Below, piece after piece: positions 3,635-5,746 of a DNA stretch of 64,000 bases. The position numbers and the translations under genes were made by a program. The stretch's first letter is position 1; every line of letters starts with the position of its first letter. The stretch covers positions 1 to 64,000 of the forward strand of contig JANQPH010000046.1 of assembly GCA_028285405.1 (NCBI GenBank). The letters run 5' to 3'. Origin of the DNA: Thermoleophilia bacterium. Lineage in GTDB: Bacteria; Actinomycetota; Thermoleophilia; Miltoncostaeales; Miltoncostaeaceae. The notes beneath the pieces are model-generated. The model worked only from the letters and a program-made list of their open reading frames with translations. It made no database searches and was not told the origin of the DNA.

Positions 3635-4600
3635 TCAGGCGCCGCCGGTCGCCCGGCGGAGCCGGTCGACGATGGCCTCGGCGATGTCCGTTCCCGTAGG
3701 GGGCACCGCCAGCACGACGTCGACAGCGAGGTGATCGCTCTGACGAAGCGCCGCGTAGAGTTCGCGCGCGTACCCCGTGCCGTGGCCGAGCCCGTCGATC
3801 ACCAGGACGGCTCGATCGACCGAGACCGGCTCCGGCGAGAGAACGGCGACACGCCCTCCCGCGCTCGTGAGCTCGGCGGCCCGGGTGGCGAGCCCGTCTG
3901 CCGATACCAGCTCGACGCTGGCGTCGGGCGAGTAGTGCACGGCGAGCCGTCCTGGCGCCCGCGGCCCCGCATCCCGCGCGACCCGACCGACCGGCCGCTC
4001 GAGCGCGCGCGCGAGCTGGCTGCTGCTGACCGCCCCGGGGCGAAGGATCGTCGGTTCGCCGCCGCTCAGGTCGAGGACCGTCGACTCGATCCCGATCGTC
4101 GGCGCGCCGCCGTCGAGCACGACCTCCACGCGCTCGCCGAGCTCGGCTCGCACCGCCTCGGCGCTCGTCGGGCTCACCCGCCCGAACCGGTTCGCCGAGG
4201 GCGCGGCGACTCCACCGCCGAACCCCGCGATCAGCGCGAGCGCGATCGGGTGGTCGGGAACCCGAAGGCCAACGGTGTCCTGGCCCCCTGTCACCTCGTC
4301 GGGCACATGCCGGGAGCGAGGGACGACGAGCGTCAGGGGCCCAGGCCAGAACGCGTCCGCGAGCGCACGGGCGTCGCGTCCGGGTCCGACCGAGTAGCGC
4401 TCGAGCAGGCTGGCATCGGCGCCGTGCACGATGACCGGATGGGACCGTGGGCGTCCCTTCGCGTGGAAGAGCCGCGCGAGCGCAGTCGGCCGCTCGGCGG
4501 CGGCACCGAGCCCGTAGACCGTCTCGGTTGGGAAGGCCACCAGGCGGCCGGCGTGGAGCGCGGTGATGGCCAGCTCGAGGTCTGTGTCGGGGTCGCTCAG
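3635..4600 (-). CDS. L-threonylcarbamoyladenylate synthase (long Sua5 form)
   Basis: The enzyme makes threonylcarbamoyl-AMP from threonine, bicarbonate and ATP for the t6A37 modification of tRNA. The YrdC domain is clear: VAFPTETVYGLG, FHAKGRPRSHPVIVH, TLVVPRS, VGLRVPDHPIAL, VAAPSANRFGRVSPT. It is followed by the Sua5 C-terminal domain (LAVHYSPDASVELV onward), giving the long form. The first ATG/GTG in frame (GTG 4540) would cut off the opening helix of the YrdC fold. The frame continues upstream with family-like residues (LELAITALHAGRL) to CTG 4600, which overlaps the stop of the preceding radical SAM gene (CTGA). I therefore place the start at 4600; 4540 is the conventional alternative. Confidence 0.85.
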   Translation of the reverse strand: MSDPDTDLELAITALHAGRLVAFPTETVYGLGAAAERPTALARLFHAKGRPRSHPVIVHGADASLLERYSVGPGRDARALADAFWPGPLTLVVPRSRHVPDEVTGGQDTVGLRVPDHPIALALIAGFGGGVAAPSANRFGRVSPTSAEAVRAELGERVEVVLDGGAPTIGIESTVLDLSGGEPTILRPGAVSSSQLARALERPVGRVARDAGPRAPGRLAVHYSPDASVELVSADGLATRAAELTSAGGRVAVLSPEPVSVDRAVLVIDGLGHGTGYARELYAALRQSDHLAVDVVLAVPPTGTDIAEAIVDRLRRATGGA

Positions 4601-5688
4601 TGGCGCTCCGTCACGGCAGTGGGGCCCGTCGGCGCGACATCGAGCGCGAGCTGCCGGTCGTCGGCGACGGGAGGGGGAGGGAAGACGCGCCTCGGGCCCA
4701 CGTCACGAACCACAGGTCGGACTCCGCCGTGGCGTGCCGTGAGGCGCTCGACCCGTCGGGCGAGCGCATCTCGATCGGCGCGCGGCCCGTACGCCGAGCG
4801 GTACCGGCGCTCGATCTCTCCGGCCAGCCGCTCGTCCCGGGCGCCGAGCCACGACAGGTAGTGCTCGCGTACGCCGGGGCGAAGGTGCAGCAGTACCGCC
4901 GAGATCGATGTGGCGCCGGCCTCGACCGCGGCGCGGACGACCGCGTCGATCGAGTCGTCGCCGTCGGTCAGGCCGGGAATCACCGGAGCGATCAGGACGC
5001 CGCACGGGATGCCGGCCTCGTTGAGGCGCGAGACCGCCTCGAGGCGCTTGGCGGGGCTCGGCGCGCGTGGCTCGGTGAGCCGGGCCATCTCGGCGTCGAG
5101 GGTACCGATCGAGAGCGCCGTGGCGACCTCGACTCGCTCGGCGGCGGCCTCGAGCACGTCCAGGTCTCGCAGGATCAGCGGCGACTTGGTGAGGATCGAG
5201 AACGGCGTGTCGCACTCGGCGAGTGCGCCGATCAGGCCCCGCGTGAGCCGGTACCGCGACTCGACGAGCTGGTAGGGGTCGGTGTTGGTGCCCATCGCGA
5301 CGTGCGCTGCCGCCCACCGTGGCGACGACAGCTCGGCGCGCGCGCGCTCGACCGCGTTCACCTTGACGACGATCCGCCGGTCGAAGTCGTCGCCCATGTC
5401 GAGGCCGAGGTACTCGTGCGTCGGGCGCGCGAAGCAGTAGACGCACGCGTGGGTACAGCCGCGATACGCGTTGATCGTCCACCGGAAGGGCACGACCGCC
5501 CCGTCCGGGACCTCGTTGACGACCGAGCGGGCGCGCACGTGCAGAAGCTCGATTCCCGCGAGCTCGTCTCGACCTGGGATCCAGCCGCGTTCCTCGAAGA
5601 GGCTCGGCTGCCCCGCGTCGTCGTCGGTCAGCCGCCACCGAAGTGGCTCGGGAGCGCTCTTGGCGTACTCGTCGCTGCGAGCCGGCAT
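4597..5688 (-). CDS. Rv2578c-like radical SAM protein (SplB/COG1533 type)
   Basis: This 363-residue protein carries the radical SAM cluster motif CTHACVYC shortly after the strand WTINAYRGC, then HVAMGTNTDPYQLVE and FSILTKSPLILRDLD, typical of the COG1533 'DNA repair photolyase' group that includes mycobacterial Rv2578c. The reaction is unknown. The ATG at 5688 was chosen because the sequence just upstream is a promoter: a perfect LexA box occupies 5702-5715 and a -10-like TATGCT lies at 5700-5695. Control by DNA damage supports a DNA or nucleotide repair role. Its stop overlaps the probable CTG start of sua5. Confidence 0.82.
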   Translation of the reverse strand: MPARSDEYAKSAPEPLRWRLTDDDAGQPSLFEERGWIPGRDELAGIELLHVRARSVVNEVPDGAVVPFRWTINAYRGCTHACVYCFARPTHEYLGLDMGDDFDRRIVVKVNAVERARAELSSPRWAAAHVAMGTNTDPYQLVESRYRLTRGLIGALAECDTPFSILTKSPLILRDLDVLEAAAERVEVATALSIGTLDAEMARLTEPRAPSPAKRLEAVSRLNEAGIPCGVLIAPVIPGLTDGDDSIDAVVRAAVEAGATSISAVLLHLRPGVREHYLSWLGARDERLAGEIERRYRSAYGPRADRDALARRVERLTARHGGVRPVVRDVGPRRVFPPPPVADDRQLALDVAPTGPTAVTERH

Positions 5689-5701
5689 CGTCGAAGCATA
5701 G

Positions 5702-5715
5702 CGAACACATGTTCG
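5702..5715 (-). promoter_or_regulatory. LexA (SOS) box
   Basis: The sequence CGAACACATGTTCG matches the Gram-positive/actinobacterial LexA operator CGAAC-N4-GTTCG exactly, and its arms extend to GCGAAC/GTTCGC (5701-5716). It lies immediately upstream of a -10-like TATGCT (5700-5695) and 13 nt before the ATG of the radical SAM gene, so a bound repressor would block the promoter. No other GAAC-N4-GTTC match was noticed in the intergenic regions of the window. Confidence 0.82.
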
Positions 5716-5746
5716 CATGCAGCCCGGCCCGGGCGACACGTCATTC

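Follow-up and report, generated by a model that had tools for sequence, protein, structure and literature searches.

A radical SAM gene with the fold of spore photoproduct lyase (SPL) is very probably switched by DNA damage through a working LexA operator on its leaderless promoter, and on comparative grounds we regard LexA control of this gene as near certain. In the mechanism that we propose, bound LexA would extend over the spacer and onto the edge of the -10 element, blocking transcription of the gene. Upon DNA damage, RecA filaments would lead to LexA self-cleavage, and the gene would be switched on. Its SPL-fold product probably acts on damaged nucleic acid, through what would be a reaction other than that of spore photoproduct lyase as known.

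The operator and its promoter

The window, by which we mean the whole stretch of 64,000 nucleotides that was analysed, carries both the radical SAM gene and its box on the minus strand (Table 1). Read in that direction, the box is followed by a single C, a -10-like element, six further nucleotides and an ATG. This is exactly the order described in the initial annotation, which had called the palindrome a perfect LexA box in a promoter, with TATGCT directly after it and the ATG 6 nt beyond; the annotation gave no strand for the gene. The box core, CGAAC-N4-GTTCG, is identical to that of the actinobacterial and Gram-positive LexA consensus, TCGAAC-N4-GTTCGA, whereas the outermost pair is G/C in the window box (GCGAACATGTGTTCGC) and T/A in the consensus. 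A LexA protein is encoded in this genome, and its binding to the box is predicted from these letters and from their conservation.

Table 1 Features at the predicted operator and promoter in the window
Feature	Position	Strand	Basis
Predicted LexA operator (SOS box) CGAACATGTGTTCG	5702..5715	-	sequence; exact core conserved in orthologues
-10-like element TATGCT	5695..5700	-	1 nt (C) after the box; TANNNT spacing in homologues
Spacer TCGACG	5689..5694	-	
Start codon ATG	5686..5688	-	shared spacing in homologues
SPL-like radical SAM gene, 363 aa, nearest the Rv2578c family	4597..5688	-	NCBIfam and Pfam profiles, structure model

Because the reading frame upstream of the ATG at 5688 stays open as far as a GTG at 5739, the assignment of this ATG as the start is a choice, but one that is supported by the many homologues sharing the same spacing of box, -10 element, six nucleotides and start codon. 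Among 122 homologues, 72 have a TANNNT element 0-3 nt after the box, where shuffled sequences lead one to expect 1.9, and the first ATG or GTG after the box falls at a modal distance of 6 nt beyond the -10 element. Box, -10 element and start are thus spaced as in a leaderless actinobacterial promoter, with predicted occlusion by LexA. A scan with the sigma-70 consensus found no promoter at the site; leaderless actinobacterial promoters lie outside that model.

A second arrangement was seen in much of the rest of the class, where the box runs directly up to the start codon (loci L028-L057). These start-abutting boxes nearly always read GAACAT-N2-GTTC, and their left half may double as the -10 element. 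With either arrangement, a separate -10 element or one internal to the box, bound LexA would block RNA polymerase.

Conservation of the box and its place in the SOS regulon

Taken by itself, the motif in the window is not significant, since GAAC-N4-GTTC occurs once in the 64 kb against 0.39 expected, and at least once in 31 of 100 shuffles of the window. Such figures are what a chance palindrome in GC-rich DNA beside a start codon would give, yet we assign this explanation next to no probability, because the exact box recurs in the same place in 122 of 130 orthologues from genomes across the phylum with unrelated flanks, while control motifs were found in only 0-2. Within the order, all 11 genomes that have the gene carry the exact box before it; in their alignment the half-sites do not vary (100% identity), whereas identity over the 46 bases upstream drops to 30%. 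In a first joint set of 71 loci (the 11 order orthologues plus 60 others from the class and the phylum), the exact box was present in 64 and a box with at most one mismatch in 69, as compared with 0-1 of 71 for each of four control palindromes. In a second set, the testable loci scored 20/20, 19/20 and 19/19 (58/59 together), with 0-1 occurrences for each control motif. By contrast, the box was found in none of 20 distant radical SAM relatives. The initial annotation had proposed conserved damage control and had named as its refutation the absence of a LexA box upstream of orthologues in sister genomes, together with a lack of induction after damage; these counts for order and phylum support the proposal, and the refutation by absence of a box clearly failed.

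A set of 80 named, mostly Actinomycetota loci carried the exact box in 39 cases, or in 55 when one mismatch was allowed, with 5 of the 80 matches beginning too far downstream of the true start to show a box. Degenerate left half-sites were common in this group, many of them reading CGTAC or CGCAC. Mycobacterial and other actinobacterial members of the Rv2578c family have a LexA box before the gene, as in the window, and in named Mycobacterium and Mycolicibacterium homologues (e.g. L279, L284 and L290) the exact CGAAC-N4-GTTCG stands just before the start. The neighbouring genes sua5, hsp20 and lon were absent beside the radical SAM gene in 40 other loci, and an operon with sua5 or a conserved hsp20/lon context was rejected on these grounds.

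The pattern CGAAC-N4-GTTCG occurs seven times in the 2.41-Mb genome, as compared with no occurrence of a reversed control pattern. Three of the seven boxes precede genes of SOS type, namely dnaE2, a DprA-like gene and the primary sigma factor gene; one each stands before a glyoxalase-like gene and the radical SAM gene, and two lie without a clear target. Besides the exact box of dnaE2, boxes with one mismatch precede lexA (GGAACACCTGTTCG) and recA (AGAACAGATGTTCG), so that SOS genes of the same genome share the motif. Among the other exact boxes, that of the sigma factor gene lies shortly upstream of it (L004 1501-1514; G000:C24:25752-25765) and recalls rpoD of the E. coli SOS regulon, while that of the DprA-like gene (PF02481, E 1.6e-58) lies directly before it (L001 1501-1514; G000:C10:18406-18419). 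Exact boxes without a clear target were seen next to mraZ and in the vicinity of a GCV_T-domain gene (L007 and L003); a 132-aa open reading frame after the L007 box had no Pfam match.

In 30 sampled genomes of the class, the exact box precedes lexA in all 30, but recA (loci L205-L234) in only 5 (7 of 30 with one mismatch), so that most of the sampled genomes show no recognisable box at recA. The link of the box to the radical SAM gene is tighter than its link to recA, and resembles that to lexA. Co-occurrence of lexA with the radical SAM gene was dropped as evidence, being uninformative because lexA is nearly universal (LexA is present in 276 of 299 genomes of the class).

A real box might still be read by another regulator whose motif resembles that of LexA, for instance an ArsR-type repressor; sharing of mycobacterial SOS boxes by such a repressor has been suggested, and the E. 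coli ArsR motif resembles the mycobacterial SOS box (PMC8151990). This is very unlikely to be the case here, given that the same motif precedes lexA in every one of the 30 sampled genomes as well as dnaE2 and recA in this genome, and that proteobacterial homologues of the radical SAM gene switch to the LexA motif of their own lineage.

That switch was seen in a Proteobacteria sample limited to plasmid records and two MAG loci. On alphaproteobacterial replicons, homologues of the PA0069 family have the alphaproteobacterial LexA motif GTTC-N7-GTTC upstream in 11 of 13 records, and the E. coli-type motif CTGT-N8-ACAG stands before the homologue in an Aeromonas record and in one proteobacterial MAG. 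The homologue in Legionella adelaidensis was preceded by neither of these motifs; to our knowledge, Legionella is without a classical SOS system. In a Nitrosomonadales MAG (L313), the palindrome ahead of the PA0069 homologue, at 174 bases from the match, is of a Gram-positive-like kind (AGAACGTTCGTTCT) and not CTGT-N8-ACAG. Across lineages, the regulator motif changes while the predicted LexA wiring of the gene persists.

Regulation of this kind is not new, since papers on Actinobacteria, Proteobacteria and Bacteroidetes have already described LexA control of a radical SAM or 'splB' gene. The core Gram-positive SOS regulon includes a radical SAM protein (PMC7739468), splB was predicted to be LexA-regulated in alpha- and betaproteobacteria (PMC3323433), and SplB/COG1533 has been called SOS-regulated in several species (PMC8565304). 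In Streptomyces venezuelae, the radical SAM gene vnz_31145, a putative family member, is induced 20-fold by mitomycin C and bound by LexA, with a published box, TCGACCGTTCGCTC, at -61 (PMC9380542). This box differs from the one in other Streptomyces orthologues and was not found in those searched. The link is thus less new than the initial annotation had implied, LexA control of this radical SAM group having been described in the four papers just cited. The present analysis confirms that link and extends it; new are the near-universal occurrence of the box, a comparison with recA and lexA, the spacing of the promoter elements, and the observation that the name splB does not fit the protein.

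The protein and its probable task

In a comparison with NCBIfam, the protein matched the Rv2578c family best (NF038135, E 1e-110). As its 369.7 bits fall below the curated cut-off of 430, a score that no genome of the class sample reaches, 'Rv2578c-like', the wording chosen in the initial annotation, is the right one. The protein shares with this family full-length similarity and the CX3CX2C cluster motif (C78-C82-C85), and it matches Pfam Radical_SAM (PF04055) at E 6e-15, with 56.2 bits against a gathering cut-off of 29.5. The second NCBIfam match was the proteobacterial PA0069 family (NF033668, E 1e-76), which is homologous and likewise preceded by a local LexA motif, although its proteins are 29-38% identical to the window protein and the motif differs. 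This family is apparently the group called splB in the LexA regulon papers.

An AlphaFold2 model built on an alignment of 46 sequences (mean pLDDT 76, most of the core >90) had spore photoproduct lyase as its best structural match (PDB 4fhc; VIA Z 16.4, rmsd 3.5-3.6 Å over 257-261 residues), followed by LipA (Z 14.0), with PFL-AE (Z 12.6) and RlmN (Z 11.6) among the other matches. Plain Foldseek placed the PFL-activating enzyme first and SPL third, while a search of the PDB with the family profile placed SPL first (E 0.003). SPL is thus the nearest solved fold, but at about 14% identity.

Could the protein then be a genuine SPL, as the name 'splB' in several papers on LexA regulons would have it? 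The fold and the breadth of COG1533, which takes in both SPL and this radical SAM group (PMC8565304), would allow it; however, the score against the SPL profile TIGR04070 was 16.6 bits, where the cut-off is 400, and no position between residues 86 and 228 has a cysteine in at least 30% of the 46 aligned members. The donor cysteine of SPL, which we take to be C140 and to donate a hydrogen atom (from the titles of PDB mutant entries and general knowledge), has no conserved counterpart in the stretch from the cluster motif to residue 229. Score and missing cysteine both disfavour this identity, which we consider highly improbable. Beyond the cluster cysteines, only C229 is frequent (32 of 46 members, with V or P in the others).

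A weightier alternative is that LexA control is real and that the enzyme, rather than repairing DNA, serves to modify an RNA, nucleotide or protein in the stress state. The matches to the RNA- and protein-modifying enzymes LipA, RlmN and PFL-AE and the absence of the SPL-type conserved cysteine are compatible with such a task, and LexA regulons contain non-repair genes too (PMC9380542). A DNA-repair link of the Streptomyces Rv2578c-family gene, into which the phage Samy integrates, has been called speculative (PMC12924846, 2026). Nevertheless, SPL is the best match both in structure (Z 16.4 against 14.0 for the next group) and in PDB sequence, and a direct function in damage is favoured because the LexA wiring appears to be independent in several lineages. 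We accordingly hold a non-repair task to be possible but rather doubtful, whereas repair, as judged from regulation and fold, is the moderately probable task of the enzyme. Tentatively, and at a little short of even confidence, we suggest that the enzymes of the Rv2578c/PA0069 group may belong to the core of the SOS response and undo some DNA lesion directly, by radical SAM chemistry that dispenses with the cysteine donor of SPL, and that a different cysteine (C229 here) may serve in part of the actinobacterial members.

Of the 'real DNA-damage role' put forward in the initial annotation, the part that concerns the timing of expression holds, while neither enzymatic nor genetic evidence turned up for the remainder. 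Damage control of the enzyme family is predicted in almost all sampled genomes of the phylum, more consistently than for recA there. Together with the own-lineage LexA motifs of homologues elsewhere, the phylum-wide boxes are strong evidence for a damage-related role, and make a search for the lesion on which the enzyme acts worthwhile.

In many homologues (e.g. L030, L040, L042, L046 and L049), the matches extend over about 1.8-1.95 kb within a single open frame, which is consistent with an intein-containing form (NF038136) having the intein in the radical SAM core.
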